Of a stretch of DNA of 36,121 bases, positions 2,962 through 35,821 are shown piece after piece. The notes beneath the pieces are model-generated. The model worked only from the letters and a program-made list of their open reading frames with translations, did not search any database and was not told where the DNA came from. The position numbers and the translations under genes are program-made. This DNA comes from Oscillospiraceae bacterium. Lineage in GTDB: Bacteria; Bacillota; Clostridia; Oscillospirales; Acutalibacteraceae. The stretch is from contig JAQUHC010000006.1 in assembly GCA_028683785.1 (NCBI GenBank), forward strand, positions 1-36,121, in the 5' to 3' direction. Positions within the stretch are counted from its first letter, which is position 1. Each line of letters starts with the position of its first letter.

Positions 2962-3984
2962 TTAATAGTCTAACGCTGATTTAATCATTGCCATAAATTT
3001 TTCGTATGGGATATAGTCGGGAATGCTGTTGCCAGATCCGAGAGCATAACCGCCGTCTTCCATTGATGTATCAATCATATTTCTGCATCTCTTGGTGATT
3101 TCTTCTTCCGAGGATGTAATAAGGAAATTTACATCAATTCCGCCGAGTATGGCAATTCGCCCGCCCCAACGCTTGTAGGACTCCTCGACAGAAAGAATAT
3201 TATCTTCATATGAATGCTTTCCGTCAAAGCCCATATATGTGATGATATCTTCCATAACATCATTCATATATCCGCATGAGTGGAGCACAGCAGGCTTGGA
3301 CGCCTTGTGAATAACCTCCACAATCCTTTTGTGCCACGGGAAAACATATTTACGAAGGTCGTCCACCGATAAAAGAGTTTGGGAGTTAAATCCCCAGTCG
3401 TCATTGGAAATAAGTACGCCTACACTATTATATTGGGCAGCTATTTCATAATATTTAACAAGGCGACTGCCCACAGAGTCAAAAATTTCTTGTACAAGCT
3501 CGGGATCGTCAAACAACATATAACACAGGTTATCGTAACCGACCAGCTTGGTCACATTCTCAAGAACACCGTCCGGCCCCATAATCATGAGCTTCATATT
3601 GTCGCCAAGATAATCTTCTATTTTTTCGAGCCTTGAGTAATCAAAACTTTCCGGGTCAGGCCAATCGTAAGCATCAAAGGAGGCTCTGTCTGTGATAACC
3701 ATGCCTTCATTAAGCGACAGGGTACTTTTATGCTCCTTATTATTAATAGAAAACTTAAAGTCGCTTGCATAAACGGTTGCGTAGTCATATCCGGCGTTAC
3801 GATAGGCATCAATTATTAATTTCATGATGTCAAGATATGAGTTGTAATGTTCTTTCCTGCCTGCAAGCTTCTCGTACAGCGGAATGTTCATAAAAAACTC
3901 AAATAATGTGGGTCTTTTCGGGACCTCACACCGAAGCACCTTTAAAAGATTTTGAAACTCTGGTTGCCTGTTACTGATAGTCAT
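2962..3984 (-). CDS. Uroporphyrinogen decarboxylase (URO-D) superfamily / MtaA-CmuA-like protein
   Basis: 340-aa ORF with URO-D-type features: 'KLMIMGPDGVLENVTKLVGYDNLCYMLFDDPELVQEIFDSVG', 'ISNDDWGFNSQTLLS', 'PAVLHSCGYMNDV'. Lacks the HemE N-terminal RQAGRYLPEY signature. Confidence 0.85.
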   Translation of the reverse strand: MTISNRQPEFQNLLKVLRCEVPKRPTLFEFFMNIPLYEKLAGRKEHYNSYLDIMKLIIDAYRNAGYDYATVYASDFKFSINNKEHKSTLSLNEGMVITDRASFDAYDWPDPESFDYSRLEKIEDYLGDNMKLMIMGPDGVLENVTKLVGYDNLCYMLFDDPELVQEIFDSVGSRLVKYYEIAAQYNSVGVLISNDDWGFNSQTLLSVDDLRKYVFPWHKRIVEVIHKASKPAVLHSCGYMNDVMEDIITYMGFDGKHSYEDNILSVEESYKRWGGRIAILGGIDVNFLITSSEEEITKRCRNMIDTSMEDGGYALGSGNSIPDYIPYEKFMAMIKSALDY

Positions 3985-4015
3985 CTTAGTCCTCCAGCAT
4001 TAATTATAAATAATA

Positions 4016-5077
4016 TTAGCGACAATATTTAACAGATGATCGTATGATGAGATTAACCGGCAGATACATTCTTGAATAAGCGGTTGATTTGCTATGATTT
4101 AATACAGCTTTGGCGGCTTCAATCCCCATCCTTAAAAATGGCTGCTCGATGGTTGTAAGAGCCGGTATAATCTGGGAGGCTGCCGAGAGATTATCAAAAC
4201 CGACGATTGAAAGTTCGTCAGGAATTACCATACCTAAATCATAAGCAGTATCGTATATGTTAAAAGCAACAGAATCGTTTGTGCAAAAAATAGCCGTTGG
4301 CGGGTCGGGCGATGTAAGTAATTCTCTTCCGCAATTTTTGTTCATACCGTAACATTCCAGGACATAGGAAGGGTTGACATCAATACCATAATCGCGTAAT
4401 GCACAGCGATAGCCTTCGTATCTGTGCTTGACCGTTTCAAACAGATTAAGTCCTGAATTAATGATTGCGATTTTCTTATGCCCATGTTCAAGTAAATGTT
4501 TGGTTGCCAAATAGCCTCCTGTGAAACCGTCGGTGGTGATTATGTTGCATGGGAGGTCGATTGGTGCCCTGTCAAGAAAAACGAGAGGATAACCGTCTCG
4601 AATAAGATTTCTGAATATCTCGTCATTTACAAAGGGCTCGCTGGGATAAAAAATAATTCCGCGTGAATTACTGGATATTGCTTTTTTAACCGCTTCCAAC
4701 TCCAGATGAGGGTCGTTGTCTGATAACGAAATTGAGGTGTGAATATTCTCGGAAGACAGATGCTGTTCTATTCCGCGCAGGAAAAAAAGCGACTGCATTT
4801 GGTTGGCCATTATTACGGATACAAAAGAAGATTTAAATATGTTCTCGTTATAATCGGGGAAGCTTGAATTGAATTTAACAAATGTTCCCCTGCCGGGTTT
4901 CCTTTCCACATAACCGTTGCTCGCCAACTTGTTGAGCGATTTTTGCGCGGTTATTCTTGAGACCTTATATTTGTTCATTATCTGGTGCTCGGTGGCCACC
5001 TTGTCGTTTTCTTTCAATACACCATTACGAATATCAGATAATATATCCTGATAAATTTTCTCATATTTTAGCGACAT
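4016..5077 (-). CDS. GntR-family transcriptional regulator with LacI-type ligand-binding domain
   Basis: N-terminal wHTH 'IYQDILSDIRNGVLKENDKVATEHQIMNKYKVSRITAQKSLNKLASNGYVERKPGRGTFV'. C-terminal periplasmic-binding-like domain '...IIFYPSEPFVND...TDGFTGGYLATKHLLEHGHKKIAIINS...AIFCTNDSVAF...DELSIVGFDNLSAASQIIPALTTIEQP'. Confidence 0.93.
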   Translation of the reverse strand: MSLKYEKIYQDILSDIRNGVLKENDKVATEHQIMNKYKVSRITAQKSLNKLASNGYVERKPGRGTFVKFNSSFPDYNENIFKSSFVSVIMANQMQSLFFLRGIEQHLSSENIHTSISLSDNDPHLELEAVKKAISSNSRGIIFYPSEPFVNDEIFRNLIRDGYPLVFLDRAPIDLPCNIITTDGFTGGYLATKHLLEHGHKKIAIINSGLNLFETVKHRYEGYRCALRDYGIDVNPSYVLECYGMNKNCGRELLTSPDPPTAIFCTNDSVAFNIYDTAYDLGMVIPDELSIVGFDNLSAASQIIPALTTIEQPFLRMGIEAAKAVLNHSKSTAYSRMYLPVNLIIRSSVKYCR

Positions 5078-5437: not shown

Positions 5438-7579
5438 TTGAAAAGACAGAGGATTGTATCGCTTTTTTCTGTAATTATTATTATCCTTTCATTATTTGTC
5501 GGGTGCGGCGGCACTGGCAACGATACAAGCGGAGGCAAAAAGGCTCCGGGGGAAACCCAAAAAGGTGATTCTACCACGCAATCGGGTTATTCATCGAATG
5601 ATGAGGTGACCTGGGGTACAGATGCCTTTGGGAGTACAATTACCGGTATAAATACTTCTACCAACGGTCAAACCCCGGGCGGGAGCAGCAATCAAAATCC
5701 GGGCGGGAATGGTAATAAAACCAATCCCGACGGTTCAAGCATATATGGCAGTACAACAGTCGGTTCAGGCGGCACCACCGGCACGACCAAGCCACCGGTA
5801 AAACCGCGTGAGATTTATCATGTTTACATAAATGATATGATGCTTCAAAATATCAGCGATAGAGAAAAATATGATCAATTTACTTTCGTCACAAGCTTGC
5901 AAGGCTCTATTAATAGGAATAATCCCAGTATATTTACCGAATGGGATATGGAGGTTGACAGGTTTTGGTTCGATTATATCACCGGAGCCGGCAAACCTTT
6001 TAATGGAGTCAAGAGAAATATTATAGGGACATTTGAAAAGTTTGTTGATACATTTTTAAATGAGATAAAACAAAGAGGATTGGTGGTATGGGATAAAAAT
6101 GTTCCCTCTACATCAAATGTAGCTGCCACGGCTTGCAGTGTTGACGGATATCTTCCCGTCAGGTATGAAACAGATTCAAAAAGCGTATACCAGATGCTGA
6201 CCAAGGAATATAATATTCCGGTCAAGTTAAATCTTGTGGGTAAATTTACGGGTAATGGAACAATTCCGGATACCAACAGGCAGTCAAGCAGCAGCACAAA
6301 ATGCGATGCGTATATATGGGCTATCGAGAAATATATGGATAAAACAAGCGACGAATACATGGCATATTATCTTGACGCGGCAACCTGGGGCAGCGATACG
6401 AAAAATCCGAGCTATTCAAATTTCAGAAACACCGGTCTTCCGAACCGAGATTATGCTGTTGCCAGAAAAGCCTTTTTCTTTGATTTATCATCCTGGGGAG
6501 ATGAAAAACCCTGCGATGACCCCAACCAGCCTCTTGGTACCGACCTGAAGACATTAAAAGAAATTCTGCAGCGACAGTACAACAAAAGCGGCGGAAAAAA
6601 GATTACCCAAATAAGCGGATATACCCCTTGGCAGATAAAGTATACTACATGGCAGAACAAGGGAAAGCACGACGGAGTTCCAACAGAATGGGAGCTTACA
6701 GAAATAATATCGGCATACAACTGTGTGCTTGATGCCGATTCCGCAGATTACAGTCAGCTTTCGAATGCATCGTTTTATATGCATTATCCCCTTAAGAACT
6801 CATATACGAACAGTAAGCCTTTAGTGGCCAATCCTGTAAATAACAAAAACAAAAAATATGTATACATCTATATGGGGGATTATGATTCCGCAGCTTGGCT
6901 TACAAAGTTCGTTCCGAAAATGTTCACCGATAAAAATCGCGGAAAGATACCTCTTGCATGGCCGTTCAACCCCAATCTTTCAAAAAGAGTCCCCATGGTG
7001 TTTGATTATGTTTACGAAAATAAGACGACCAGAGACTTCTTTACATCAGGCGACTCGGGTGCAGGCTATCTTAATCCATCCCTTCTGCTTGCCGGACAGC
7101 GGCAGCATTCCAATAATCCATCTGGCATGGATGCCTGGATTTCTTGGAACAAGACATTTTATAATAAGTTTGACCTTTCAATTACCGGTTTTTTATTGAA
7201 CGGCAGCAATAACATACCCGATGAGGTTTTTGATGCATATTTACAGTTTTCACCAAACGGCATCATGGTGAACAGAAGTGTTGACAAATACAGCCCGCGG
7301 GTCTATAAGGGTATGCCTCTTGTAATAAATGCATTGGACATTGCACATGACAACAAATCCATTCAAAAGCCGGCCGGAACGCTCAATGAGAATGCGGTAA
7401 ACACCGCCGATAGAATTTTATCCCAGATAAGCAGCACCAGTACAAACACGTACGCTTTCAGAACCATACTCTGTACACCCACATTTATGTACGAGGTTTA
7501 TAAAAAGGTAAGGGCAAAGAATTCAAATGTTGAGTTTGTTGATCCCTACACCTTTTTCGAAATGGTAAAGCAGCAGTAA
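5438..7579 (+). CDS. Lipoprotein, GxGYxYP-family putative glycoside hydrolase (copy 1)
   Basis: Lipobox LSLFVGCG. Low-complexity Gly/Ser/Thr linker. Full-length similarity to the other two copies, including 'EKYDQFTFVTSLQGSINRNNPSIFTEWD', 'ATSNVAATACSVDGYLPVRYETD', 'GDYDSAAWLTKFVPKMF' and 'SGDSGAGYLNPSLL'. TTG start preceded by AGGAGG. Confidence 0.8.
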   Translation: MKRQRIVSLFSVIIIILSLFVGCGGTGNDTSGGKKAPGETQKGDSTTQSGYSSNDEVTWGTDAFGSTITGINTSTNGQTPGGSSNQNPGGNGNKTNPDGSSIYGSTTVGSGGTTGTTKPPVKPREIYHVYINDMMLQNISDREKYDQFTFVTSLQGSINRNNPSIFTEWDMEVDRFWFDYITGAGKPFNGVKRNIIGTFEKFVDTFLNEIKQRGLVVWDKNVPSTSNVAATACSVDGYLPVRYETDSKSVYQMLTKEYNIPVKLNLVGKFTGNGTIPDTNRQSSSSTKCDAYIWAIEKYMDKTSDEYMAYYLDAATWGSDTKNPSYSNFRNTGLPNRDYAVARKAFFFDLSSWGDEKPCDDPNQPLGTDLKTLKEILQRQYNKSGGKKITQISGYTPWQIKYTTWQNKGKHDGVPTEWELTEIISAYNCVLDADSADYSQLSNASFYMHYPLKNSYTNSKPLVANPVNNKNKKYVYIYMGDYDSAAWLTKFVPKMFTDKNRGKIPLAWPFNPNLSKRVPMVFDYVYENKTTRDFFTSGDSGAGYLNPSLLLAGQRQHSNNPSGMDAWISWNKTFYNKFDLSITGFLLNGSNNIPDEVFDAYLQFSPNGIMVNRSVDKYSPRVYKGMPLVINALDIAHDNKSIQKPAGTLNENAVNTADRILSQISSTSTNTYAFRTILCTPTFMYEVYKKVRAKNSNVEFVDPYTFFEMVKQQ

Positions 7580-7694
7580 TAGTATAATAATAGGTATATA
7601 AATAAACAAAAATTTGATTTATTAACCGTTGTTCAGCTTTTATATTTGACAAGTGAGTGCCGTGGTAATTGCGGCACCGAAAGGCGAGGATTAT

Positions 7695-9809
7695 ATGATA
7701 AGTATTTATAAAAGAATTGCTGCACTTGCGCTTTGTATGGTTATGGCTTTAACTGCTATAGGGTGCAAGCCCGAGGACGACACATCGGGAATAAGCTCAA
7801 AAACAGGAATAATTACAAATCCTTCAGGAGAAACAGGTGGTCCTTCATCAACCGACGGAAACGGTACTACAGACGGCCAACCGAGTGGTTCAACACCGGG
7901 CGGAAATTCAACCGGCAAGATAGATTCAACAACAAGTAAAAACACATCCTTAACCGGAACCAAAACTACAGCCGCTCCAACTCCCGGTCCCATAGGTGTG
8001 TATAGTCTGCCTGCAAACCCGAAGATTACAAAGCAATCAACCATGTATTATGTCTATGTCAATGATATGTTGCTTAAAAATGACAGCCATAGAGAAAAAT
8101 ATGATCAAATAAGCTTAATAACAAGTCTTCAGGGCTATGTCAACAGAACCAAGCCCAGTATATTTATTGAGTTTGAAAGCGAAATTGATCGTTTTTGGTA
8201 TAATTATGTTACGGCTGACGGAAAAATATATGACGGAATGACCGTAAAGAAAATTAGCTCATTTGAAGTATTTGTAGAGACCTTTCTGGCCGATATCAAA
8301 AAAATGGGATTGGTTGCTTGGGACAAGAATGTTCCCGCAACATCGAATGTAGCAGCCACGATATGCGGAGCTGACGGCTATCTTCCCGTGCGGTATGAAA
8401 CAGATCCTAAAAGCGTGTACCAGGTTCTTACAACAAAATATAAGGTTCCGGTTAAGATGAATTTGGCAGGTAAATTTACCGGCAAAGGTACCATTCCTGA
8501 TACAAACATAAAATCAAGCGGCAGTACAAAGTGCGATGCTTATTTGTGGGCTGCCGAGAAATATCTACATAAGACCAGTGTTGACTATATGGCATATTTT
8601 CTTGATGCCGCAACATGGGGAGATGATCCTGACAACCCGTATTATGGCGATTTCCTGAATGTATATCTTGCAAACCGTGATTATGCCATTGCACGCAAAG
8701 CCTTTTTCTTTGATCTGTCTACTTGGGGGGATGAAAAGCCTTGTGATGATCCCGACCAGCCAATGGGTACGGATTATAATACAATGAAAAAAATCCTTCA
8801 AATGCAGTATAACAGGCATAACGGAAAGAAGATGACCCAGGTAACCGGCTTTACTCCTTGGCATATCAAGTACACCAATTGGAAAGATAAAGGTTCACAC
8901 GCAGGTTATGAGACCGAATGGAAGTTGGTTGAGATTTTATCAGCGTATAACTGTACTCTTGATGCCGATTCTGCTGCCATAAGTTCATTGGCAAACGCAT
9001 CCATGTATATGCATTACCCACTGAAAAGCTCTTATAAAAACAGCAAGCCGCTCGTAGCCAACCCCAAAAATGATAAAAACAAAAAATATATATATATATA
9101 TATGGGGGACTATGATTCGGCGGCATGGGTCGCAAGATTTGTACCCAAGATGTTCAACGATAGCAGGCGCGGTAGTATTCCGCTGGCATGGGCGTTTAAT
9201 CCCAACCTTTCACAGAGGGTTCCGATGGCTTTCGATTATTTCTATTCCAAGAAAACACCCAAGGATTTCTTTGTCTCGGGAGATTCGGGTGCGGGATATG
9301 TAATGCCATCATTCTTATTGGAGGGGAAACGACAGCATTCGAATAATCCTTCGGGAATGGATACATGGATATCGTGGAATAAATACTTTTTCAATAAATT
9401 CGACCTCTCTATAACCGGTTTTATAATCAATGGATTCACCGGCATACCCGATGAAGTATATGATGGATACAAGCAGTTTTCACCAAACGGCGCCATGACA
9501 AGCATAAGCGTCAATATATATGAACCTCGTGTATATAAAGGAATGCCGTTGGTCGGGCACATTTACAGCCCGGCTAAGGACGACATCTGTGCTCCTAATC
9601 CCGCAGGTACATTTGCAGGAAATATCGAAAACACAGCAAACACGATATTGTCTCGAATTAAGTCAAATACCACCAACACATACGCATTCAGAATGGTAAC
9701 CTGTACGCCTGACTTCATGTTTGAGTTATACAAAAAGCTCAGATCCAAAAATCCGAACATAGAATTTGTCGATCCGTACACTTTTTTTGAAATGGTAAAA
9801 CAGCAGTAA
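7695..9809 (+). CDS. Lipoprotein, GxGYxYP-family putative glycoside hydrolase (copy 2)
   Basis: The ORF track begins at 7653, but ATG 7695 (MISIYKRIAALALCMVMALTAIGCK, lipobox) follows an RBS (AAGGCGAGGA). Highly similar to copy 1 after the linker. Motif GDSGAGYVMPSFL. Confidence 0.8.
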   Translation: MISIYKRIAALALCMVMALTAIGCKPEDDTSGISSKTGIITNPSGETGGPSSTDGNGTTDGQPSGSTPGGNSTGKIDSTTSKNTSLTGTKTTAAPTPGPIGVYSLPANPKITKQSTMYYVYVNDMLLKNDSHREKYDQISLITSLQGYVNRTKPSIFIEFESEIDRFWYNYVTADGKIYDGMTVKKISSFEVFVETFLADIKKMGLVAWDKNVPATSNVAATICGADGYLPVRYETDPKSVYQVLTTKYKVPVKMNLAGKFTGKGTIPDTNIKSSGSTKCDAYLWAAEKYLHKTSVDYMAYFLDAATWGDDPDNPYYGDFLNVYLANRDYAIARKAFFFDLSTWGDEKPCDDPDQPMGTDYNTMKKILQMQYNRHNGKKMTQVTGFTPWHIKYTNWKDKGSHAGYETEWKLVEILSAYNCTLDADSAAISSLANASMYMHYPLKSSYKNSKPLVANPKNDKNKKYIYIYMGDYDSAAWVARFVPKMFNDSRRGSIPLAWAFNPNLSQRVPMAFDYFYSKKTPKDFFVSGDSGAGYVMPSFLLEGKRQHSNNPSGMDTWISWNKYFFNKFDLSITGFIINGFTGIPDEVYDGYKQFSPNGAMTSISVNIYEPRVYKGMPLVGHIYSPAKDDICAPNPAGTFAGNIENTANTILSRIKSNTTNTYAFRMVTCTPDFMFELYKKLRSKNPNIEFVDPYTFFEMVKQQ

Positions 9810-9855: not shown

Positions 9856-11391
9856 ATGAAAAAACGTCAAGTCAGTAGTTTGTCACTGTTAATATGCCTG
9901 GTAATGGTTATTACAGTATTTATCACAGGGTGCGGTGGCAATGGAGCTAGCTCGGGTGGTTCTTCGTCCCAAAAAACGAGCAACACCCAGACAATCGGGG
10001 GAGATGATACATCCCAGACCGGTGACGGAACCCAAGATACAAGTAACGGAGAAACGACTGAAATTGACGAAGATGGTCAGACAGGTCCAACCGGAAGCAA
10101 ACCCGGGTCATCCGGAAATACCACAACCAAACCTTCTACCGGTGGAACAAAAGCGCCCGTTCGCGAGGTGGACTTAAAAGGCCGGACGATTAAAATCGGC
10201 ACCGTATTCAGCGAGGAATACAACCAAGAGCCCGGTCAGTCGGTTTACAGTGATTTATTCAGGCAAAAGGAAATCGAAGTTGAAAACATGTTCAACTGTA
10301 AAATTGAGTTTGTCAGGATTGCTCCCGGAAGCGTTGAAACCATAATTGCAAATGCTGTACAGGCAAATTCGGCTCCGTATGATTTGGTTGAAGCCGATAT
10401 AGCATCCGTCCGTAACCTGTCAAGGGCTAAAGCCTTGATTGACCAAAAAACACTCAGCGCTATTAATCTTAATGATAAACGGTTTATCAAGGCGGTTAAC
10501 GATAGCTATACATTCAACGGAAAGGTTTTCGGCTCCGGCTTTGAAAACGGCTCTATCACAGGTGTGCTTTTCAACAAAAGGATATTGCAGGCAAATAAAC
10601 AACCCGATATATACAAGCTTTATGATAAGGGTGAATGGACATTCGAAGCTTTTCGACAGATTGCAAAAGCAACCACAACACCTTATAAAGATGATAAAAC
10701 AAGGGATGTTTATGGTATAACAGGTGCTACAAACATAATCGGCCTTGCCCTGACATCCAATGCGGGGGCAACCGTGTCCAGAAACAGCAGCGGAAAGTAT
10801 GTCATTGATATGGCTTCAGAAAAGGGTGTCGACGCCATGAACTGGGTCAGACAATTAATGTTTGAAGATTCCGTATATGACTATACGCTTACCGATTGGA
10901 AGGGCGCCGTTAATCATTTTGCTGAAGGTAAAGCGACATTCTTCCCTTTCTATGCTTGGATTGCGCGCGATTTATCACAGACCATGATTGATGATATTGG
11001 ATTTGTACCATTTCCGAAGGGACCCGGTCAGAGTACATATATTAACGGCCTATATGGAGGCAAAGCGTTTATCTTCCCTAAGGTTGTTAAAAACCCCAAT
11101 GATGTAGCCAAGGTTTATTATGAATACGCATCTGTATCTGCAAAGCTGTGGCAGGTACTTGAGTCTCAATATAAGGGTTGGGGCTTTGATGACAAGTCTT
11201 TCACTATTTTCAAGGATGTAGCCACCAAATACAGCCGACCGGAATTTTCTGTAGGACCCGACTATTCAGGTTTTTCAAAAGAGATGAATGAAAGCGTTTT
11301 CAAGAGAACAGGGAATCCGGCATCTGTGATGGCCAGTGTTAAGAGCAAGTTCCAGAAAGCAACAGACGATTATTATAATGCATTCCCATAA
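9856..11391 (+). CDS. ABC transporter extracellular solute-binding lipoprotein (sugar type)
   Basis: Lipobox FITGCGG and Ser/Thr/Gly linker. 'GRTIKIGTVFSEEYNQ...QKEIEVENMFNCKIEFVRI...ANSAPYDLVEADIASVRNL...LYDKGEWTFEAFRQIAKATT' is typical of family 1 SBPs. RBS AGGAGGAG. Confidence 0.85.
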   Translation: MKKRQVSSLSLLICLVMVITVFITGCGGNGASSGGSSSQKTSNTQTIGGDDTSQTGDGTQDTSNGETTEIDEDGQTGPTGSKPGSSGNTTTKPSTGGTKAPVREVDLKGRTIKIGTVFSEEYNQEPGQSVYSDLFRQKEIEVENMFNCKIEFVRIAPGSVETIIANAVQANSAPYDLVEADIASVRNLSRAKALIDQKTLSAINLNDKRFIKAVNDSYTFNGKVFGSGFENGSITGVLFNKRILQANKQPDIYKLYDKGEWTFEAFRQIAKATTTPYKDDKTRDVYGITGATNIIGLALTSNAGATVSRNSSGKYVIDMASEKGVDAMNWVRQLMFEDSVYDYTLTDWKGAVNHFAEGKATFFPFYAWIARDLSQTMIDDIGFVPFPKGPGQSTYINGLYGGKAFIFPKVVKNPNDVAKVYYEYASVSAKLWQVLESQYKGWGFDDKSFTIFKDVATKYSRPEFSVGPDYSGFSKEMNESVFKRTGNPASVMASVKSKFQKATDDYYNAFP

Positions 11392-20656: not shown

Positions 20657-20729
20657 TGTAGAATATCCGGTTTGAAATAAATCAGGGCTGCATTGGACTT
20701 CAAATACGGCAATGAAAGGAATATGTGCG

Positions 20730-25266: not shown

Positions 25267-25358
25267 AGCGGATAAAATAAGATGCACAGTTTTCATTAAC
25301 TTAAAACAACCTGGCTTTGGAGTTCTCCTATGCCTTATACGAAAGGATAAAAACTCAA

Positions 25359-28091
25359 ATGAAACTATTTTGCGTTATTTCACACACACACTGGGACAGA
25401 GAATGGTATCAACCTTTTGAGGTGTTCCGTTTACGCCTAGTAGATTTGATCGACAGATGCTTAGAATTACTGGAAACCAGTCCGGATTATATTTTTCATC
25501 TGGACGCACAAACCATTGTTCTTGAAGACTATCTCGAAATCAGAGAAAGCAAGAGGCAGCAACTAGAGAAATTCGTGCAGCAAGGAAGATTAATTGTCGG
25601 CCCATGGTATCTTCAAAATGATTTCTATCTTACCAGCGGTGAATCGACAATCAGAAATCTACTTTTCGGTCATAGGATTGCTGAAAAATTCGGAGCATGT
25701 CAGAAAGTAGGATATGCGGCCGACCAATTCGGCAATATATCCCAATTGCCGCAAATTTTGTCCGATTTTGATATTAAGAACTTTGTATTCGGCAGAGGCT
25801 ATACTCAGTATAAAAAAGAGGATGACGGTCAATATTACCGCAAGACCTTACCCAGCGAATTTATTTGGAAGGGTGCCGACGGAACAGAGGTACTTGCAAT
25901 AAATATGCCATATTGGTATAATAATGCCCAGAGATTTCCAAGCGATATTGATAAATCAATCGGTATGCTAAACAGGATAGAGGGCCTGTTCGAAAATGTT
26001 GCAACTACACCATATCTTCTTTTGATGAATGGGGTAGACCATCTTGAAGCGCAGGATGATTTACTTCCGATTATAAATAAAGTAAACAGCAGGCTGGGCG
26101 ACGAGAAGCAAGTGTTGCAGTATAAATTGGATGACTATATCCGTCATGTGAAAAGCTATATCAAAGAGAATGATATTAAGCTTAAGGTTTGTGAGGGTGA
26201 ATTGCACGATGGAGGCGATTTTGATTTATTAAAGGGAACCCTCTCGTCACGCGTATATCTGAAGAACTCTAACGTAAAGGCACAGAACAGATTGGAATGC
26301 CATCTCGAACCTTTATACTCCATGCTTGAGTTATCGGGTATGCAAGGTGTATATTCACTTGATTACTTTAATTTTATGTGGAAAGAATTGCTCAAAAACC
26401 ATGCGCATGATTCCATTTGCGGTTGCAGTGTTGATAATGTTCACACACATATGGAAGATAATTATCTGCGTCTGAAAGAGGTTTACGGTGAGCTTCTGAA
26501 CAGAGGGTTGGAGATTGCAGCCGAACATATTGATATTCCGCAATATGACAATGACAACTATGTCATTGTTGCCGCAAATACAACTGAATTTAAACAAAGC
26601 ACTTTGGTAAGGGTCAGCTTGGATATATTGAAAAAGGATGATTACAAAGGTTTTGTTATCACCGATGGTCTCGGAAATCGGGCAGATTATGCCATAATTT
26701 CACGCAGGGATGCGGCGAGGGATGTGTACAGCCCTCTTAATCTTCCGGGTAAGCTGGATGTGGACAGATACGATATTTATCTTTATGTCAAGGATATTAA
26801 TCCGTTTTCATTCAAGGGTTATGTTGTATCCAAGGATGATATCTCCCAAGATGATATGATTGATAATAAACCAATCGGTAAATTAGATTCCGAATTTCAG
26901 ATCGGCAATGAAAATCTCATTGTTAAGATTCACAAAAACGGTCAGGTTGATTTATGCGATATCGAAAAAGATAAATGGTATATTGACATAATTGATATTG
27001 AGGAAACGGCTGACCGCGGTGATGCATATGTATATTTTGCAACGCAGGATGATGTTATAAAAGGCTCGGATTTTGATGCTTCGGTATCTGTCCTGGAAGA
27101 TAATGAGATGGTTTCCCGTATAGAAATAATAAGGGATATGTTGGTTCCTGATCATTATGATTTCGAGAATAAAAAGCGGTCGGAAATTGAGACATTATGC
27201 CGTGTTACATTAGAGTTATGCCTTGAAAAGGGTGCCAAGACTCTTTCAGTCAACTATAAAATTGATAATACCGCAAAAGACCACAGGATGCGCCTTGTTA
27301 TTCGCACAGGAGTAGACACCGATTCAATCATTACAGATATCCCGTTTGATATTTTACAGCATAAAGACAACGCTCATTTTGAAGTAACAATGAGCAAGGT
27401 GGTAGCCAATACATCATTCGCACTTCTCGAAAATGACCGAAACGGTATGGCTGTCTTTACAGAGGGTATGCATGAGGCCGAGCATCTACCCGACGAAAAG
27501 GCAATTGCTCTTACCATGGTTCGTTGTACCGGAGTTGTCAGCCGCCACGCCGATTTGTCAGAGGGCGGAGGCGAAAACTGGAGAGCGCCGGAAAATCAGT
27601 GCATTCGGACGGTTACGGGCAGAGCAGGAATATTACCTTACACGGGCGGATATATAAACACCGGAGTATATAAATACAGCAAGTTGTTCAGAAATAAGCC
27701 GCTTGCATATTTTACTTCCTGCGATTCAAGAAAATTCAAGGTGGGAAGGGCGACGGTACAAGAGACCGATTTACAGGATTACTATTACATCCAGGACCCG
27801 TATGCCAAGGTTAAAATCAAGGACAATAGTTCCTTGGTCGAAGTTCTCGGAACAGGTGTATCGGTTTCTGCTCTTAAAAAATCCGAGGGCGGAGACGGCA
27901 TCATATTGAGGGTGGTTAATTTGGATGAAAACACTCAGGATTTGAATGTAAAGGCAAAGGGCGTTATCTATAAAACCACAATGCATGAGAAACGCAGGGA
28001 TTATATTTGCTCTAATTCATTTAAGTGCAACCTGCCGTCAAAGAAAATAGCAACCTATTGCATAGACAAAAATTACGGCGAAAGTGAATGA
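25359..28091 (+). CDS. Glycoside hydrolase family 38 alpha-mannosidase-like protein (MngB-like), no signal peptide
   Basis: Zn/active-site motifs 'ISHTHWDREWYQPFE', 'VGYAADQFGNISQLPQIL' and 'KNHAHDSICGCSVDNVH'. ATG 25359 follows an AAAGGA RBS; the track start at 25317 is less likely. Confidence 0.92.
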   Translation: MKLFCVISHTHWDREWYQPFEVFRLRLVDLIDRCLELLETSPDYIFHLDAQTIVLEDYLEIRESKRQQLEKFVQQGRLIVGPWYLQNDFYLTSGESTIRNLLFGHRIAEKFGACQKVGYAADQFGNISQLPQILSDFDIKNFVFGRGYTQYKKEDDGQYYRKTLPSEFIWKGADGTEVLAINMPYWYNNAQRFPSDIDKSIGMLNRIEGLFENVATTPYLLLMNGVDHLEAQDDLLPIINKVNSRLGDEKQVLQYKLDDYIRHVKSYIKENDIKLKVCEGELHDGGDFDLLKGTLSSRVYLKNSNVKAQNRLECHLEPLYSMLELSGMQGVYSLDYFNFMWKELLKNHAHDSICGCSVDNVHTHMEDNYLRLKEVYGELLNRGLEIAAEHIDIPQYDNDNYVIVAANTTEFKQSTLVRVSLDILKKDDYKGFVITDGLGNRADYAIISRRDAARDVYSPLNLPGKLDVDRYDIYLYVKDINPFSFKGYVVSKDDISQDDMIDNKPIGKLDSEFQIGNENLIVKIHKNGQVDLCDIEKDKWYIDIIDIEETADRGDAYVYFATQDDVIKGSDFDASVSVLEDNEMVSRIEIIRDMLVPDHYDFENKKRSEIETLCRVTLELCLEKGAKTLSVNYKIDNTAKDHRMRLVIRTGVDTDSIITDIPFDILQHKDNAHFEVTMSKVVANTSFALLENDRNGMAVFTEGMHEAEHLPDEKAIALTMVRCTGVVSRHADLSEGGGENWRAPENQCIRTVTGRAGILPYTGGYINTGVYKYSKLFRNKPLAYFTSCDSRKFKVGRATVQETDLQDYYYIQDPYAKVKIKDNSSLVEVLGTGVSVSALKKSEGGDGIILRVVNLDENTQDLNVKAKGVIYKTTMHEKRRDYICSNSFKCNLPSKKIATYCIDKNYGESE

Positions 28092-29214
28092 GATTTATAG
28101 TATGAATACTGATCTTTTGGAGCTTAACAGAGCTGTCATACAAAGAAAAGCAAACGGAAAAACAATCTGGCAACCTCGTATCGGATGTTGGTATGATGAC
28201 AGGGTATTCCGAGGTGAGCAATTGCCCGGGGACTTCAAAGGATTTGATAAAAAAGGCATTTATGAAAAGATCGGCTGCTCAGACAGGTTATATAATTTTA
28301 ATCATTGCTTTGAAATTAAGTATGACAGCTCTGTTAAGGCATACAGAAATAAAATTGATGAATTGACCTGCGAATACATTTATGAAACACCGGTAGGAAA
28401 AATTAATCAGATCATAAAGGGAAACACAAGCAATCCGGGACAGATGCCTGTAAAATGGTGGATTGAGAATAGGCATGATTTAAAGGTTTACAGCTATATT
28501 GAGGAAGCAGCGACATATTCATTTAATATGAATACATATAATAAGATTTATGCTGAATATGCTCATCTGGGGCTGCCCACCATGTTTTTGCCGAGGGTAA
28601 ATATGCAAAAGATGTTTATCGACCTTTCGGGCGTCGAAAACGCGATATATCTTCTGTCGGACGATAAGGATTATGTAGAAGGATATTTTAAAGCGCTTAG
28701 CATTGGACAAGAAAAAATGTTAAGGGTTGTTGCAGACAGCCCGATCGAATGGATAAACTACGGTGATAATATTCACTGCAAATTGTTACCGCCCGAGATT
28801 TATAAGAAATATGTGCTCCCCGAATATGAAAAAAGAGGAGATATATTGCATGCCTCCGGCAAATTCACATTTTCGCATTGGGACGGTGATGTAAAGGATC
28901 TTCTCCAATATGCAAAAACCAGCTTTCTCGACGGAATTGAAGCCATAACACCCGTACCCCAGGGCGATGTCACCTTGGAAGAGGTAAAGGAAGCGCTTGG
29001 AGACGAAGTGTTTTTGATTGATGGTATTGCATCCATATTATTCAACAATACATACCCGTTAAATATGCTTAGGGAACAAACCAAAAAAGTTTTAAATCTT
29101 TTCGAAGGACAATTGGTGCTGGGAATATCGGATGAATTTCCATCAGACGGTCTATTGGAAAGAATTGAATATGTTAATGAAATGGTGAATGACTTTAACT
29201 CAAAAAGAGATTAA
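28084..29214 (+). CDS. URO-D superfamily / MtaA-like protein (copy 2); GTG start overlaps the GH38 stop
   Basis: URO-D-like organisation 'IEWINYGDNIHCKLLPPEIYKKYVLPEYEKRGDILHASGKFTFSHWDGDVKDLLQYAKTSFLDGIEAITPVPQGDVTLEEVKEALGDEVFLIDGIAS'. Confidence 0.82.
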   Translation: MNEIYSMNTDLLELNRAVIQRKANGKTIWQPRIGCWYDDRVFRGEQLPGDFKGFDKKGIYEKIGCSDRLYNFNHCFEIKYDSSVKAYRNKIDELTCEYIYETPVGKINQIIKGNTSNPGQMPVKWWIENRHDLKVYSYIEEAATYSFNMNTYNKIYAEYAHLGLPTMFLPRVNMQKMFIDLSGVENAIYLLSDDKDYVEGYFKALSIGQEKMLRVVADSPIEWINYGDNIHCKLLPPEIYKKYVLPEYEKRGDILHASGKFTFSHWDGDVKDLLQYAKTSFLDGIEAITPVPQGDVTLEEVKEALGDEVFLIDGIASILFNNTYPLNMLREQTKKVLNLFEGQLVLGISDEFPSDGLLERIEYVNEMVNDFNSKRD

Positions 29215-29400: not shown

Positions 29401-30519
29401 ATGAAGCGTTTCCGGAAAGACTATATTAATTATATGACGTACCAGCAGGTTGAACGTCCATTTTTCTGTGAGCTGTTCGGCCCTTTAATAGGCTTGGAAA
29501 AAGAATGGGAGGAACAAGGGGCGACATCTGACCAATTGAATTTAACTGAATTTTGCTTCGACTATATGGATATATTTACGGTTGGTAACACGGGTGCAAT
29601 TAACTGCTTTAAGGAACAAACACTTGAAGATACCCAAGATTACATAATAAAAACCGATTATTTGGGAAGAACCGTAAAAATGTGTAAGGGTACATCTACA
29701 ATCCCGCTTCCCCTAAATTTTCCGGTTAAGGATATGGAAAGCTGGTATAAAATCAAACACATGTTTGAATATGACAGCTGTAGGGTGGATTCTAAGCAAA
29801 TAGAACGTGCAGCTGATTTACAGGAAAAAGGTGTATTAATCTGCGCAAATATACAAGGTGGCTTTGACATGCTGCGGGAGCTAATGGGCGAGGAAGTTAC
29901 TTGTATTTCTTTCTTTGAGCAGCCAGAATTGATTGAGGATATTTTAAGCACAATTTCTGAAACAAATATTAAAGTATTAGACAGAATAAGCAGTAAAATC
30001 ACCATAGACCAATTGGGAGTCCATGAGGATATGGCAGGAAAACATGCACCTTTGGTGGGCCCAAACATAGTTAGGGAATTTATTAAGCCTTATTACCGAA
30101 AAAGCTGGGATTTGCTTAATAAGAGGGGTACAAAACTATTTAGTCAAGACAGCGACGGAAATATGAATGCCGTAATTGACAGCTTTATTGAATCCGGAGT
30201 TAATATTTTTTATCCATGCGAGCCGGCTGCCGGAATGGATATCGTTCAACTTCGTCTAAAATACGGTAAGAAGATAGCCTTTAAAGGAGGTATTGATAAA
30301 CACATATTACGAGAATCAAAAGCGAGCATTAGAAAAGAACTCGAATATAAGATGCAGCCCAATATGCAGACTGGAGGGGTTGTATTTGGGCTTGATCACC
30401 GAATACCGAATGGAACGCCTTTGAAAAATTATATTTATTATGTTAAAACCGCAAGAGAACTTCTTAATCTCCCACCTATAGAGCTAAGCGAAATGGGTTG
30501 GGGAAGAATGGCATTTTAA
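29401..30519 (+). CDS. URO-D superfamily / MtaA-like protein (copy 3)
   Basis: 'RPFFCELFGPLIGLEKEW...CANIQGGFDMLRELMGEE...FFEQPELIEDILSTISE...GTKLFSQDSDGNMNAVIDSFIESGVNIFYPCEPAAGMDIVQLRLKYGKKIAFKGGIDKHIL'. Confidence 0.85.
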   Translation: MKRFRKDYINYMTYQQVERPFFCELFGPLIGLEKEWEEQGATSDQLNLTEFCFDYMDIFTVGNTGAINCFKEQTLEDTQDYIIKTDYLGRTVKMCKGTSTIPLPLNFPVKDMESWYKIKHMFEYDSCRVDSKQIERAADLQEKGVLICANIQGGFDMLRELMGEEVTCISFFEQPELIEDILSTISETNIKVLDRISSKITIDQLGVHEDMAGKHAPLVGPNIVREFIKPYYRKSWDLLNKRGTKLFSQDSDGNMNAVIDSFIESGVNIFYPCEPAAGMDIVQLRLKYGKKIAFKGGIDKHILRESKASIRKELEYKMQPNMQTGGVVFGLDHRIPNGTPLKNYIYYVKTARELLNLPPIELSEMGWGRMAF

Positions 30520-30533
30520 AAGGAGAAGGCAAA

Positions 30534-31652
30534 ATGCTTGATTTAGATTTAGAACAATTCTGGAAAGATGACGAGCTGGCCCATAAGGATAACTGCTTTA
30601 ATCCTGATGCACCGCAGGCAGCATTGGGGATTAGAATGAGCGATGAATGCGTATTTGCTGAATTGAATGAACCGGGTGAACCGTGGGGGCATACTCCGCT
30701 TGAAAGAAGAATAGAGCTAAACAAAAGATATAACGATAAAGCTGAAAAAATCGTAGGGAAGCGGCTTCTGCGAGAGGAGTTTCCGGATTCGGACCCGGAC
30801 AGCAGGTTCCCGGGAAGAAAAAGTATCGAAGAAATATTTGAAGGCAGACATGTTTTTCGGGGAGGCTCTAACTGGGTTGAAAGCGACTGCGATACACCGA
30901 AGAAGCTGGAAAAATTGTTGGACAGGGTAGAAAATCTGGAGCTCAGAGAATTCTTATTGCCCCCTAACTGGGAAAGCGAAAAGAAAAAAATATTTGAGAA
31001 ATATGGTAAAAAGCCAGATGTATTAAGAGGCATAAGAGGTCCGGTTACTTTGGCAACCTCGATATACGGTGTGGAAAATCTTATTTTTCTTATTATGGAT
31101 GAACCAGATCTTGCAAGACGCTTCAGTCAGGTAATTTCGGATACCCTTTTTAAAATGGTTACAATATTTGATGAAGAAGCAGGTTTTACTTATCCGAAAG
31201 CACCCCGCTATTTTTGGTTCAACGATGACAACTGTTGTATGTTGACCCCTGAAATGTACGAATTGTTCGGCTATCCGATTTTGAAGAGGATATTTGAACA
31301 TTGGGCTCCGCAACCCGGAGATTATCGTTATCAGCATTCTGATTCCGAAATGGGGCATCTGCTTCCGATATTATCAAGGCTAAACCTCACTGGCTGCAAT
31401 TTCGGTCCCACCGTCACCATTACCGAAATTAGAAAACATATGCCGAAAACAAGAATTGACGGTCAGCTATCACCCTTTACTTTTATGAGAAATGATGAGG
31501 ATGCGATTATTGCAGAGGTAAAAAGAGATTGCGAAATGGCAAAGGAATGCAGGGGACTCAATTTGAGCACAGCCGGTTCTATCAATAACGGCAGCTTATT
31601 GACAAGTATGCGTACAGTTATGTACGCAATTCAAAAATATGGCAGATATTAA
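30534..31652 (+). CDS. URO-D superfamily-like protein (copy 4)
   Basis: ATG 30534 follows AAAGGAGAAGG. 'IRGPVTLATSIYGVENLIFLIMDEPDLARRFSQVISDTLFK...WFNDDNCCMLTPEMYELFGYPILKRIFEHWAPQPGDYRYQHSDSEMGHLLPILSRL'. Confidence 0.8.
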   Translation: MLDLDLEQFWKDDELAHKDNCFNPDAPQAALGIRMSDECVFAELNEPGEPWGHTPLERRIELNKRYNDKAEKIVGKRLLREEFPDSDPDSRFPGRKSIEEIFEGRHVFRGGSNWVESDCDTPKKLEKLLDRVENLELREFLLPPNWESEKKKIFEKYGKKPDVLRGIRGPVTLATSIYGVENLIFLIMDEPDLARRFSQVISDTLFKMVTIFDEEAGFTYPKAPRYFWFNDDNCCMLTPEMYELFGYPILKRIFEHWAPQPGDYRYQHSDSEMGHLLPILSRLNLTGCNFGPTVTITEIRKHMPKTRIDGQLSPFTFMRNDEDAIIAEVKRDCEMAKECRGLNLSTAGSINNGSLLTSMRTVMYAIQKYGRY

Positions 31653-31749: not shown

Positions 31750-32712
31750 GTGGCTTCGAATGTAATGGATGCGCTTTCGTACACGGATGAAGATAATACC
31801 GTGTTACACTATCGCTTATACGTTCCGGACGATTACAGCGCCGAAAAGGAATACCCGCTAGTGTTGTTTTTACACGGTGCAGGTGAGCGGGGAACCAATA
31901 ACTTTTCTCAGATTAATAATGTTGGGATTATTAACCGTATTATCAATAGTGATACTGCCGACTTTGACTGTATCATAGTAGCTCCCCAGTGTGCTACCAA
32001 CAACCAGTGGGTGGATACTCCATGGGCTTACGGCTCTTATGTTCAAGATAATATTCCAATAAGCAAATATATGAAAGCCACCAAGAGTCTTATATCTCAT
32101 ATTGAGAGCATATACAGTGTTGACAGTAAGCGGCTTTATGTAACAGGCCTTTCCATGGGAGGGTACGGCTCATGGGATATAATTACTCGATACCCCGATA
32201 TGTTTGCAGCTGCAATACCCATTTGCGGGGCAGGTGATCCCTCAAAAGCCGAGCTTATTAAGGATGTAGCCATATGGGCTTTCCACGGAAGCGACGACAA
32301 TGTTGTTCCGGTAGAGGGAACACGCCAAATGGTAGACGCACTGGAAGAGCATGATGGCAATATTCAGTATACTGAATACCCGGGTGTTGATCACGGAAGC
32401 TGGGGGCTTGCATATGCAGAAGATAATCTGTTGACATGGCTCTTTGCACAGGAGCAAGCAGAACCCGATCCAACTACTGCGTCAACCACAGAACCAACAA
32501 CCGAGTCTACTTCAGAACCAACAACCGAACCTACCACGACCGATGATGATATTTCATTGACAGAAACATTGGCTCCTAAAGACGATGATTCAAAATCACC
32601 CAAGACCGGGAAAGATTCAATCCGTTATGCTCTTATTTCAATAGCATTGTCATTGTCTGTATCTATCTTTGGGCTCAAAGCAATGACTAAATCAAGGAAC
32701 ACACAGGTATAA
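31750..32712 (+). CDS. Alpha/beta-hydrolase esterase (CE1/dienelactone hydrolase-like) with TEPTT linker and C-terminal sorting signal; N-terminal secretion signal apparently missing
   Basis: Catalytic motifs GLSMGG (Ser), GSDDNVVP (Asp) and GVDHGSW (His). Linker 'TTEPTTESTSEPTTEPTTT'. C-terminus SPKTGKDSIRYALISIALSLSVSIFGLKAMTKSRN. Confidence 0.82.
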   Translation: MASNVMDALSYTDEDNTVLHYRLYVPDDYSAEKEYPLVLFLHGAGERGTNNFSQINNVGIINRIINSDTADFDCIIVAPQCATNNQWVDTPWAYGSYVQDNIPISKYMKATKSLISHIESIYSVDSKRLYVTGLSMGGYGSWDIITRYPDMFAAAIPICGAGDPSKAELIKDVAIWAFHGSDDNVVPVEGTRQMVDALEEHDGNIQYTEYPGVDHGSWGLAYAEDNLLTWLFAQEQAEPDPTTASTTEPTTESTSEPTTEPTTTDDDISLTETLAPKDDDSKSPKTGKDSIRYALISIALSLSVSIFGLKAMTKSRNTQV

Positions 32713-32980: not shown

Positions 32981-34795
32981 GTGGCACAATTAATTGATAA
33001 TAAGAGCGATATGTTCAGCAAAACAAAGAGTTTATATTATGTTTATATGGAGAAAATACTGGAGTCTCAAATGAGCGATGCCGAAAAATATGATCGCTTT
33101 AATTTCATATGCAGCCTTCAGGGTTTGGTAAACCGCGATGCCCCGACGTTGTTTATTGAATGGCAAAAAGAAACCGATATTTTTTGGTTTGACCATCTTA
33201 CAAACGGCAGCAGTGTTTTTCATAAAATCCCACCGATTCAAATCAACAGCTTTTCAGAGCTCCTGAATGAATTTCAAACAGAAATAGAGCGCAGAGGTCT
33301 GGTAGTATGGGATAACATGATACCGGCAACCTCTAATGTTGCGGCAACGGTATCCGGAGTTGACGGTCTTTTGCCTGTCCGATATAATTCATCGGAGGAC
33401 AGCTTATATTCTATTCTCACAAAAAAGCTGAATATTGCCATTAAACTAAATCTATATAATAAATTCACCGGCAGCGGTACTATCCCCGATATTGACCGTA
33501 AATCGAGCGGAAGCAGGAAATGCGATGCGTACATATGGGCAATGGAATTATATTTAGATAAAACCAGTGTGGATTATATGGCCTATTTTGTGGATGCTGC
33601 GACATGGGGGGACGATCAACAAAATCCCGAGTATCCGAATTTTCAAAATATCAATCTGCCCAACCGTGATTACTCAATTGCCAGAAAAGCATTCTTCTTT
33701 GATTTATATTCTTGGGCGGATGAAACTCCGTGTGATGACCCGACTCAACCGCTTGGCAGCGATTTAAACACCCTGAAAGAAATTTTTCAAAGACAGTACG
33801 ATAGGCATAAAGGCTCCAAAATGGCGCAGATTAGCGGATACACACCATGGCAATGCAAATATACAACCTATCATAGTAAGGGCAAGCACGGCGGGGTCGA
33901 GACCGAATGGGAGTTGACAGAGATTGCATCGGCTTACAACTTTGTGCTGGATGCGGATTCAGCCGCGTTTAGTGATTTGAGCAATGCATCAATATACATG
34001 CATTATCCTCTCAAAAATGAATATAAAAATAATAAACCCGACACAAGCAGTATTAAAAAAGAAAAAGGGAAAAAGTATGTTTACCTCTTTATCGGCGATT
34101 ATGATTCTGCTGCTTGGTTAGCTCGGTTTGTCCCAAAATTTTTTAACGATCCTGCCAGAGGCTCAATTCCGATGGCATGGGCATTCAATCCCAATTTATC
34201 TGACAGGGTACCCATGGTTTTTGACTATATCTATTCTCATTTGACTGAAAATGATTTTATTACGTCCGGCGCTTCAGGAGCGGGCTATATCAATCCGTCA
34301 TTGCTGATGGAGGGGCAGAGGGTTCATTCTGATAACGGGGACGGACTCAAAGCATGGGAGCAATGGAATATTAATTATTTCCGTAAGTTTGATCTGTCAA
34401 TTATCGGGTTTTTAATCAACGGAGATAATGAAATCCCGTTTGAGTTATATAATAGCTATTCGAAGTTTGCGCCGGTAGGAATCATGTCAAATCAAACTAT
34501 TGATAAAGAAAAACCGCTTGTATACAAAGGCGTTTCGTTGGTGCGCTGTGCTTTGGATATAGCCCATGAAAATCGCTCGATACAGAATCGTTCAGAATCA
34601 TTTGACGAAAACGCAAAAAATACGGCGAAAACGATCGTCTCTCAGGTTAATGGTTCAAAGGTTGATACTATGGCATTCAGAACCATACTTTGCTCGCCTT
34701 CTTTCATCAAAGCAGTATATGATTATGTAAAAGAATACGATGAGAGCATAGAAATCGTTGACCCATATACCTTCTATGAAATTGTAAAACAATAA
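32981..34795 (+). CDS. GxGYxYP-family putative glycoside hydrolase (copy 3), no signal peptide
   Basis: Colinear with copies 1 and 2 ('EKYDRFNFICSLQGLVNRDAPTLFIEWQKETDIFWFDH', 'IGDYDSAAWLARFVPKFFND', 'SGASGAGYINPSLL', 'VDPYTFYEIVKQ') but starts MAQLIDNKSDMFSKTKSLYYVYMEK, without leader or lipobox. Confidence 0.8.
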   Translation: MAQLIDNKSDMFSKTKSLYYVYMEKILESQMSDAEKYDRFNFICSLQGLVNRDAPTLFIEWQKETDIFWFDHLTNGSSVFHKIPPIQINSFSELLNEFQTEIERRGLVVWDNMIPATSNVAATVSGVDGLLPVRYNSSEDSLYSILTKKLNIAIKLNLYNKFTGSGTIPDIDRKSSGSRKCDAYIWAMELYLDKTSVDYMAYFVDAATWGDDQQNPEYPNFQNINLPNRDYSIARKAFFFDLYSWADETPCDDPTQPLGSDLNTLKEIFQRQYDRHKGSKMAQISGYTPWQCKYTTYHSKGKHGGVETEWELTEIASAYNFVLDADSAAFSDLSNASIYMHYPLKNEYKNNKPDTSSIKKEKGKKYVYLFIGDYDSAAWLARFVPKFFNDPARGSIPMAWAFNPNLSDRVPMVFDYIYSHLTENDFITSGASGAGYINPSLLMEGQRVHSDNGDGLKAWEQWNINYFRKFDLSIIGFLINGDNEIPFELYNSYSKFAPVGIMSNQTIDKEKPLVYKGVSLVRCALDIAHENRSIQNRSESFDENAKNTAKTIVSQVNGSKVDTMAFRTILCSPSFIKAVYDYVKEYDESIEIVDPYTFYEIVKQ

Positions 34796-34843
34796 GCTGC
34801 AGATGGATGAGTTCCACATTCTGTTTTTAGGGGAAAGAACATT

Positions 34844-35821
34844 ATGAATAAACTCAGTGAAAAGCAACGGTTTATTAAGGCATTAAAACGTGAGAAGTTG
34901 GTTGGTCGTGTACCGCATTTTGAGTTGGTATTTTATTTAACCATGGAATCAATTGGAAAGGTTCATCCTTTGCACCGCTCGTATTACCAATGGAACCAGA
35001 TGAGTGATGTTGAGAAGACCGCACAGATTAAAGATGTGGCGGAATGCTATACTGAAATTGCGAGGAAATACCATCACAGCGCGATATTTGTACATGCAAA
35101 TCCCGGTGATTTTGAGAACACAGTCAGGCTACTTCGGGAAATTAGGGAACAAACGGGTAATGAATACTTTTTAATGATGCACGGAGACCCTACATTCCCC
35201 ATCCCTGACGGAGACAACATGATGGAATTCTCTTGTATGCTGTTTGATGAGAAATCCAAAGCAAAAGAGATGGCACAAAAACGAGTGGAAGACAGTATAA
35301 GATGGGCTGAAAACATGGCAAAACAGCCCGATTTATTGGATGGATTTGCTTTGTGCTCCGATTATTGTTTTAACACCAATCCCTTTTTCAGCCCGTCCAT
35401 GTTTGAAGAGTTTATCAGCCCCTATCTTTTAAGGATTATAAGCGAATATCGGAGTATGGGTTTTTATTCAATCAAACATTCGGACGGGAACATAGTGCCC
35501 ATCGTCGACCAAATCCTTGAATGCAAACCGGATGCACTGCATTCCCTTGACCCGCAGGGCGGGGTGGATTTGGGTTATATGAAAAAACACTATGGAAGTA
35601 AAGTGGCAATGATAGGGAATGTCAATTGCGGATTGTTGCAGACGGGAACTACCGAGCAGTGTGTGGAGGATATTCGTCGTTCATTGAGAGAGGGCATGGA
35701 TGGTTACGGGTATATCTTCTCAACATCAAATTGTGTCTATAAAGGTATGCCGCTGGAACGGTATGAGCTGATGAATTCCATTTGGCAACAAGAGGGTATT
35801 TATCCGGACGAGAAAACTTAG
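34844..35821 (+). CDS. URO-D superfamily / MtaA-like protein (copy 5)
   Basis: 'RVPHFELVFYLTMESIGKVHP...FALCSDYCFNTNPFFSPSMFEEFISPYLLRIISEYRSMGFYSIKHSDGNIVPIVDQILECKPDALHSLDPQGGVDLGYMKKHYGSKVAMIGNVNCGLLQTGT'. Confidence 0.88.
   Translation: MNKLSEKQRFIKALKREKLVGRVPHFELVFYLTMESIGKVHPLHRSYYQWNQMSDVEKTAQIKDVAECYTEIARKYHHSAIFVHANPGDFENTVRLLREIREQTGNEYFLMMHGDPTFPIPDGDNMMEFSCMLFDEKSKAKEMAQKRVEDSIRWAENMAKQPDLLDGFALCSDYCFNTNPFFSPSMFEEFISPYLLRIISEYRSMGFYSIKHSDGNIVPIVDQILECKPDALHSLDPQGGVDLGYMKKHYGSKVAMIGNVNCGLLQTGTTEQCVEDIRRSLREGMDGYGYIFSTSNCVYKGMPLERYELMNSIWQQEGIYPDEKT

Follow-up and report, generated by a model that had tools for sequence, protein, structure and literature searches.

A glycan-utilization locus of an Oscillospiraceae bacterium with five uroporphyrinogen decarboxylase-superfamily proteins and a possible link to corrinoid-dependent demethylation of sugars

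Gene content of the locus

We analysed a 36,121-nucleotide stretch of DNA from an Oscillospiraceae bacterium (hereafter the window), which is an entire contig (C76) of a metagenome-type assembly (2.0 Mb, 185 contigs, 88.9% complete). Its genes were called and then scanned against the Pfam and NCBIfam profiles. The block from 2962 to 35821 contains three genes encoding GxGYxYP proteins, five encoding members of the uroporphyrinogen decarboxylase (URO-D) superfamily and one encoding a GH38 enzyme, together with two pairs of permease genes (16606–18421 and 23316–25266) and two genes for solute-binding proteins (9856–11391 and 13666–16554). Genes g04 to g21 all lie on the plus strand, in one direction over 30 kb, and g01 to g03 are divergent, on the minus strand (Table 1). 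The C-termini SPKTG or APKTG mark three wall-anchored proteins, encoded at 162–2858, 11434–13527 and 31750–32712 (the last an esterase); g01, judging from its sequence, is probably a glycan-binding surface protein. Every gene class named in the original prediction, which was made from the sequence alone, was recovered in this block, although the GntR/LacI regulator g03, the NHL-Yip1 protein g11 and the DUF5696 (GH129-fold) lipoprotein g12 had been overlooked. Taken as a whole, this belongs to a known general type of glycan-utilization locus. What sets it apart is the group of URO-D-superfamily proteins, the orthologs of which are linked with corrinoid systems as well as with the breakdown of sugars.

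Table 1. Genes of the window, with coordinates, strand and assignment (profile matches with E-values)
Gene	Coordinates	Strand	Assignment	Profile match
g01	162..2858	-	Secreted; one domain x4, Thr-rich linkers, SPKTG wall anchor	no Pfam family
g02	2962..3984	-	URO-D superfamily, H-S-C-G motif	PF01208 1e-21; TIGR01463 6e-17 (below cut-off)
g03	4016..5077	-	Transcriptional regulator: N-terminal GntR + LacI-type sugar-binding domain	
g04	5438..7579	+	GxGYxYP lipoprotein; lipobox; proposed catalytic acids E417, D481, D483 retained	PF14323 3e-34
g05	7653..9809	+	GxGYxYP lipoprotein	PF14323 1e-31
g06	9856..11391	+	Solute-binding lipoprotein	PF01547 2e-8
g07	11434..13527	+	Secreted, APKTG anchor; CBM9/DOMON-like by eye	no Pfam match
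g08	13666..16554	+	Solute-binding protein, long N-terminal extension	PF01547 8e-20 (residues 589-862)
g09	16606..17556	+	CUT1-type permease	PF00528 1e-5
g10	17561..18421	+	CUT1-type permease	PF00528 5e-6
g11	18527..20656	+	NHL repeats + Yip1 membrane domain; part of generic transport module	
g12	20712..23285	+	DUF5696 lipoprotein, GH129-like fold	PF18952 3e-157
g13	23316..24239	+	Permease	
g14	24316..25266	+	Permease	
g15	25317..28091	+	GH38 alpha-mannosidase, cytoplasmic, catalytic motifs retained	PF01074 3e-37; 3LVT 5e-104
g16	28084..29214	+	Divergent URO-D-superfamily member, invariant H-x-D-G-D	below Pfam cut-off
g17	29401..30519	+	URO-D superfamily, Q-D-S-D-G	above Pfam cut-off
g18	30498..31652	+	URO-D superfamily, Q-H-S-D-S	above Pfam cut-off
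g19	31750..32712	+	Esterase-like alpha/beta-hydrolase, SPKTG anchor; N-terminal signal missing or truncated	
g20	32981..34795	+	GxGYxYP protein without export signal	
g21	34844..35821	+	URO-D superfamily, H-S/T-D-G	above Pfam cut-off

How much of this arrangement is particular to the window? The order solute-binding protein, permease, permease, NHL-Yip1, DUF5696, permease, permease recurs on two other contigs of the same genome (C117 and C164), in both cases without GH38 and URO-D genes. DUF5696 was discarded as a specific marker, as it is found in 161 of the 295 genomes that make up our sample of the order. The transport core is thus generic, and the GH38, URO-D and GxGYxYP genes added to it are what distinguish the window. 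A second, collinear cluster on contig C69 comprises NHL-Yip1, DUF5696, two permeases, GH38 and g17, and its nucleotide sequence is 71% identical to that of the window across 8.4 kb; missing from it are g16 and the adjoining element described below that resembles a miniature inverted-repeat transposable element (MITE). Because this copy is diverged and still collinear, the core, GH38 and g17 must have stayed together during divergence, and the grouping of these genes is more than chance. The cluster encodes a copy of g17 that is 94% identical to that of the window. In nucleotide sequence, the g17 region (C69, 1–942, against window 29375–30311) stands at 92% and the rest of the cluster at 71%, which suggests gene conversion or recent exchange.

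The three GxGYxYP copies are 59–62% identical to one another (PF14323, E-values 3e-34 to 1e-31) and retain the acids equivalent to E272, D331 and D333 of BT2193, as expected of this family of putative glycoside hydrolases. GxGYxYP proteins have been linked with alpha-mannan polysaccharide utilization loci and with GH38 and GH92 since 2014, and three catalytic acids have been proposed in BT2193 (PMC4071793). The loci described there (PUL69 of B. theta, and Caldithrix with GH92/GH38) resemble the window in combining GxGYxYP with GH38 or other mannosidases and in retaining the proposed catalytic acids, whereas the Gram-positive ATP-binding cassette importer layout and the URO-D genes are the window's own (PMC4071793). 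In all, the original interpretation is supported in part, the transport module being generic and the pairing of GxGYxYP with GH38/GH92 already published (PMC4071793). In GH38 (g15), the catalytic domain and the zinc and nucleophile motifs HWD, AADQFGN and NGVDH are all present. The structural model of g12 (predicted local distance difference test score 83) had the GH129 structure 5opq as its best Foldseek match (E-value 3e-29, TMt 0.71), followed by GH101 and GH36, and NagBb was also matched. It is thus alike in fold to GH129/GH101-type glycosidases and differs from them in that, among 27 aligned homologs, none of the acidic residues in the barrel region is conserved throughout. Because of this, catalysis by g12 is uncertain and its activity putative.

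The original prediction treated GxGYxYP and URO-D as one system, and this was not supported by their distribution. GxGYxYP is rare in the order (12 of 295 genomes), a search for related loci seeded with it returned one Armatimonadota contig only, and a URO-D gene lies within 10 kb of just 1 of 17 other GxGYxYP loci, against 0.89 expected, so that a conserved pair was rejected for this order. URO-D and GH38 were likewise rejected as a general pair (6 of 66 loci within 10 kb, 3.75 expected, p=0.18); within 2 kb, there were 4 cases against 1.03 expected (p=0.02 with the window included, 0.09 with it excluded).

The URO-D-superfamily proteins and their genomic associations

Four of the five proteins (g02, g17, g18 and g21) exceed the gathering cut-off of PF01208. 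The fifth, g16, falls under it, matching TIGR01463 alone (8e-6), and joins the superfamily through an hhalign match to the g21 family (E-value 3e-9). Because g16, g17, g18 and g21 are each only 17–23% identical to g02, the five are old paralogs. They can be assigned neither to HemE (TIGR01464, best 20.2 bits against an equivalog cut-off of 302.95) nor to the MtaA/CmuA coenzyme M (CoM) methyltransferases (TIGR01463, best 61.9 bits against 235.4). The His-Cys-Cys zinc site of MtaA/CmuA is also absent: at the His-x-Cys zinc-ligand position, g02 retains H-S-C-G without the later Cys, the families of g16, g18 and g21 have an invariant His-x-Asp, and that of g17 has Asp-x-Asp, g17 itself carrying D-S-D-G and D-H-R. 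These motif columns align with each other by hhalign. When searched against the PDB, the g21 family profile matched CdmB (4e-8) and a methylcobalamin:CoM methyltransferase (3e-7), with UroD not among the matches; the g16, g17 and g18 family profiles matched no PDB chain. In UroD-superfamily O-methyltransferases, one or both Cys ligands are replaced by Asp or Glu or by non-coordinating residues (PMC10418091), and CdmB functions without zinc (PMC13222342), which makes a metal dependence of the window proteins uncertain. The (H/D)-x-Asp site of four of the five window proteins resembles that of O-demethylating relatives. The superfamily is large in this order; one genome (G048) has 43 such genes and another (G152) has 18.

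The original prediction held that classical methyl transfer is not supported, as the window encodes no corrinoid protein. This was overturned by the rest of the genome and by the orthologs of the window genes. Contig C99 carries the genes for a corrinoid protein of 210 aa (B12-binding domain 2.5e-27, DLHDIG), the reductive activase RACo (E-value 2e-69) and DUF1638, and contig C171 encodes two MtaA-like URO-D proteins and CobW. Between CobW and a DUF1638 gene on C171, on the opposite strand (L022:4596–5003), lies a 135-aa RACo fragment, 71% identical to RACo of C99, that looks like a decayed gene. A MITE-like inverted-repeat element located between g16 and g17 (window 29247–29374) has 98% identical copies on C171 and, adjoining the corrinoid protein gene, on C99. 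A second, palindromic MITE-like element of about 167 bp (32795–32960), directly upstream of g20, has a 98.8% identical copy on C171 (L137:12985–13151). That C76, C99 and C171 have these copies, 98–99% identical, in common speaks for their belonging to one genome.

Elsewhere in the order, corrinoid proteins or RACo accompany orthologs of g02, g16, g18 and g21. Besides the window's own genome, 14 genomes of the sample have g21 orthologs, with 54–63% identity. RACo lies within 5 kb of 6 of 16 g21 loci, in 3 of 10 genera (p=3e-5 by genus), and is carried by all 15 genera with g21 orthologs, compared with 68 of 149 overall (p=3e-6); it is present in 16 of the 17 genomes with g18 orthologs (p=1.6e-6). 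In one genome of another family (G122, locus L050), orthologs of g02 (58%), g21 (58%) and g16 (48%) lie inside 13 kb, in the order g02 ortholog, P-type ATPase, AraC regulator, URO-D (HSCG), DUF2284, RACo, corrinoid protein, g21 ortholog, two URO-D genes and g16 ortholog. From the HSCG-type URO-D gene onwards the gaps are 15–65 bp, and the g16 ortholog ends the RACo/corrinoid-protein operon.

The same families occur in sugar loci. Orthologs of g18 (56–66%) are examples: locus L032 (G086:C53) contains, on one strand, CUT1 permeases, a solute-binding protein, DUF2284, a corrinoid protein (60%), a C6-type (clade-B) URO-D gene, a g17-like URO-D gene, a XylI-like barrel, a g18 ortholog (59%) and a rhamnosidase-like gene. 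In L082 (G169), a g18 ortholog (66%) has GH43, a lipoprotein in the solute-binding protein position, permeases and GH10 to one side of it and a pair of XylI-like barrels, Gfo/Idh and glucuronate isomerase to the other. 4-O-Methylglucuronate is the natural methyl sugar of glucuronoxylan, and the gene content of L082 suggests it as a possible substrate of the g18 ortholog in that relative. In L072, g17 and g18 orthologs are adjacent to each other and found with XylI-like and Gfo/Idh genes. In genome G104, one g21 paralog is part of a RACo operon and a second lies 11 bp upstream of GH38. That URO-D-like enzymes are a recurrent part of loci for glycan capture, import and processing, as predicted, is borne out by the C69 copy, by a g21 ortholog adjoining GH38 (L056) and by g21-like genes adjoining GH92, both in L065 and on contig C6, from the same genome as the window, where a GH92 alpha-mannosidase precedes the g21-like gene and another GntR/LacI-type regulator is present. 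The contexts in L032, L082, L072, G104 and C6 support the sharing of a corrinoid protein in trans between sugar loci.

Some neighbourhoods have further features. In L085 (G026:C29, 9260–13616), a g18 ortholog is located near the methanol:cobalamin methyltransferase MtaB, from which ThuA and a gene of the phosphorylase superfamily separate it. In L025 (G152:C38) and L032, runs of genes combine URO-D members with glycosidases and with a PFL-like glycyl radical enzyme and its activase; on G152:C38, a URO-D gene is directly followed by GxGYxYP, in the company of GH116, a fucosidase and the glycyl radical enzyme.

A possible route for O-methylated sugars

Starting from the observed gene content, the layout of importers and hydrolases, the paralogous copy, the corrinoid machinery of the same genome and the linkage of orthologs to corrinoid proteins and sugar importers, we propose with moderate confidence that the window is a utilization locus of the alpha-mannoside type whose corrinoid-dependent methyltransferases act in trans on sugars bearing O-methyl groups. 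The most economical explanation is that these groups are taken off the sugars in a corrinoid-dependent manner, the use of a metal, the methyl transfer, the O-methylated sugar substrate and the mannoside as glycan all being putative. The surface CBM-like proteins, the GxGYxYP lipoproteins and the GH129-fold lipoprotein would catch and trim a glycan, most likely one containing alpha-mannosides, whose fragments would be imported by the generic CUT1 module and cleaved by GH38, with or without the cytoplasmic GxGYxYP protein. The five URO-D-superfamily proteins would be paralogs that have diverged from corrinoid-dependent methyltransferases: the His/Asp site of g16, g17, g18 and g21, perhaps holding zinc, would activate the methyl-ether oxygen, and the methyl group would pass to the corrinoid protein supplied in trans from C99 and recharged by RACo. 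The acceptor side may be served by the MtaA-like proteins of C171 or by g02, which is of the His-x-Cys type.

Known systems offer partial parallels. OdmB, VdmB and CdmB, the methyltransferases I of corrinoid-dependent O- or halo-demethylases (PMC13222342), are alike in their UroD-like barrel, to which the g21 profile matches through CdmB, and in the operonic association of window orthologs with a corrinoid protein and RACo; the window proteins differ in their very low identity to them, in their sugar locus, in a corrinoid protein encoded elsewhere in the genome and in a substrate that is putative. Type 1 mlp clusters, which combine an MtaA-like protein, a corrinoid protein and an activase (PMC10418091), have their counterpart in the MtaA-like (His-x-Cys..Cys), corrinoid and RACo proteins of C171 and C99, whereas the window proteins are not MtaA-like, being under all cut-offs and, in four of the five, having other residues in place of the Cys ligands.

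Several points weigh against this proposal. The corrinoid protein and RACo are both absent from the window itself, the best-annotated relatives of its URO-D proteins are very distant, the identity of the paralogs to g02 is low (17–23%), and Foldseek scores UroD and CoM methyltransferase about equally for the g21 model. Anaerobic lineages that are rich in methyltransferases could account for part of the RACo association; in genus g50, RACo and g18 are separated by housekeeping genes, and we discounted their proximity for this reason. XylI-like and Gfo/Idh genes are frequent neighbours of g17 and g18 orthologs, so that a non-methyl chemistry is possible. The proximity of URO-D to GH38 across genomes is weak and, because it is not significant within 10 kb, the mannoside substrate rests on the GH38/GH92 content of the genome and the GxGYxYP literature and follows no general rule.

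The URO-D barrel might instead have been kept and its corrinoid chemistry lost, the proteins being metal-dependent enzymes, similar to isomerases, lyases or decarboxylases, that act on keto- or deoxy-sugars with Gfo/Idh oxidoreductases and XylI-like epimerases. The XylI-like barrels and Gfo/Idh/MocA genes beside g17/g18 orthologs in L072, L082 and L083, Gfo/Idh in L086, the D-S-D-G and D-H-R motifs of g17 in place of the His-x-Cys site and a window without a corrinoid gene would all fit, but the linkage of g02, g16 and g21 orthologs to RACo and a corrinoid protein, the g18 orthologs adjoining a corrinoid protein (L032) or near MtaB (L085) and the genus-level co-occurrence with RACo make this rather unlikely. 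We consider it more unlikely still that the substrates are methoxylated aromatics, such as lignin or feruloyl units freed by the anchored esterase. The known UroD-superfamily O-demethylases do use aromatic substrates (PMC13222342), and the window esterase is weakly similar to feruloyl esterase models; however, it is assigned to a broad fold only, and the genes nearby encode sugar importers, alpha-mannosidases, GH10/GH43/GH78-like enzymes and glucuronate isomerase, with no aromatic-specific gene seen among them. Least probable, in our judgement, is an ordinary mosaic assembled by mobile elements, in which a generic CUT1/NHL-Yip1/DUF5696 module lies beside unrelated accessory genes and the URO-D genes have no joint function. 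Such an origin would explain the module copies on C117 and C164 without URO-D or GH38, the MITE-like elements flanking g17 and g20 and the chance-level pairing of GxGYxYP with URO-D, but it is opposed by the retention of module, GH38 and g17 in the diverged C69 copy, by the co-directional plus-strand genes over 30 kb and by the recurrence of URO-D in sugar loci of other genera.

If corrinoid-dependent demethylation does operate here, the wider possibility, which we put forward tentatively and hold somewhat less firmly, is an undescribed anaerobic route for O-methyl sugars, in which sugar-specific UroD-superfamily methyltransferases encoded in glycan loci share a corrinoid protein, acting, for example, on O-methyl mannose here and on 4-O-methylglucuronate in the g18/GH10/UxaC locus. 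Plants and algae have glycans in which O-methylated sugars, 4-O-methylglucuronate for one, are abundant. In the open-access literature, we found no description of corrinoid demethylation of sugars and no described way of removing their methyl groups anaerobically. The loci name specific enzymes and partners for the demethylation of O-methyl sugars, and they offer a role for the large, mostly unassigned 'uroporphyrinogen decarboxylase family' set (up to 43 per genome here).

Other features of the window

Rfam and tRNA scans of the window gave no matches, and promoter and terminator scans returned sites no commoner than in shuffled sequence. The esterase gene g19 encodes a wall anchor but no signal peptide, and the frame upstream of it (window 31700–31760) ends in a tail like the AVA end of a signal peptide; g19 may therefore be truncated or misassembled.

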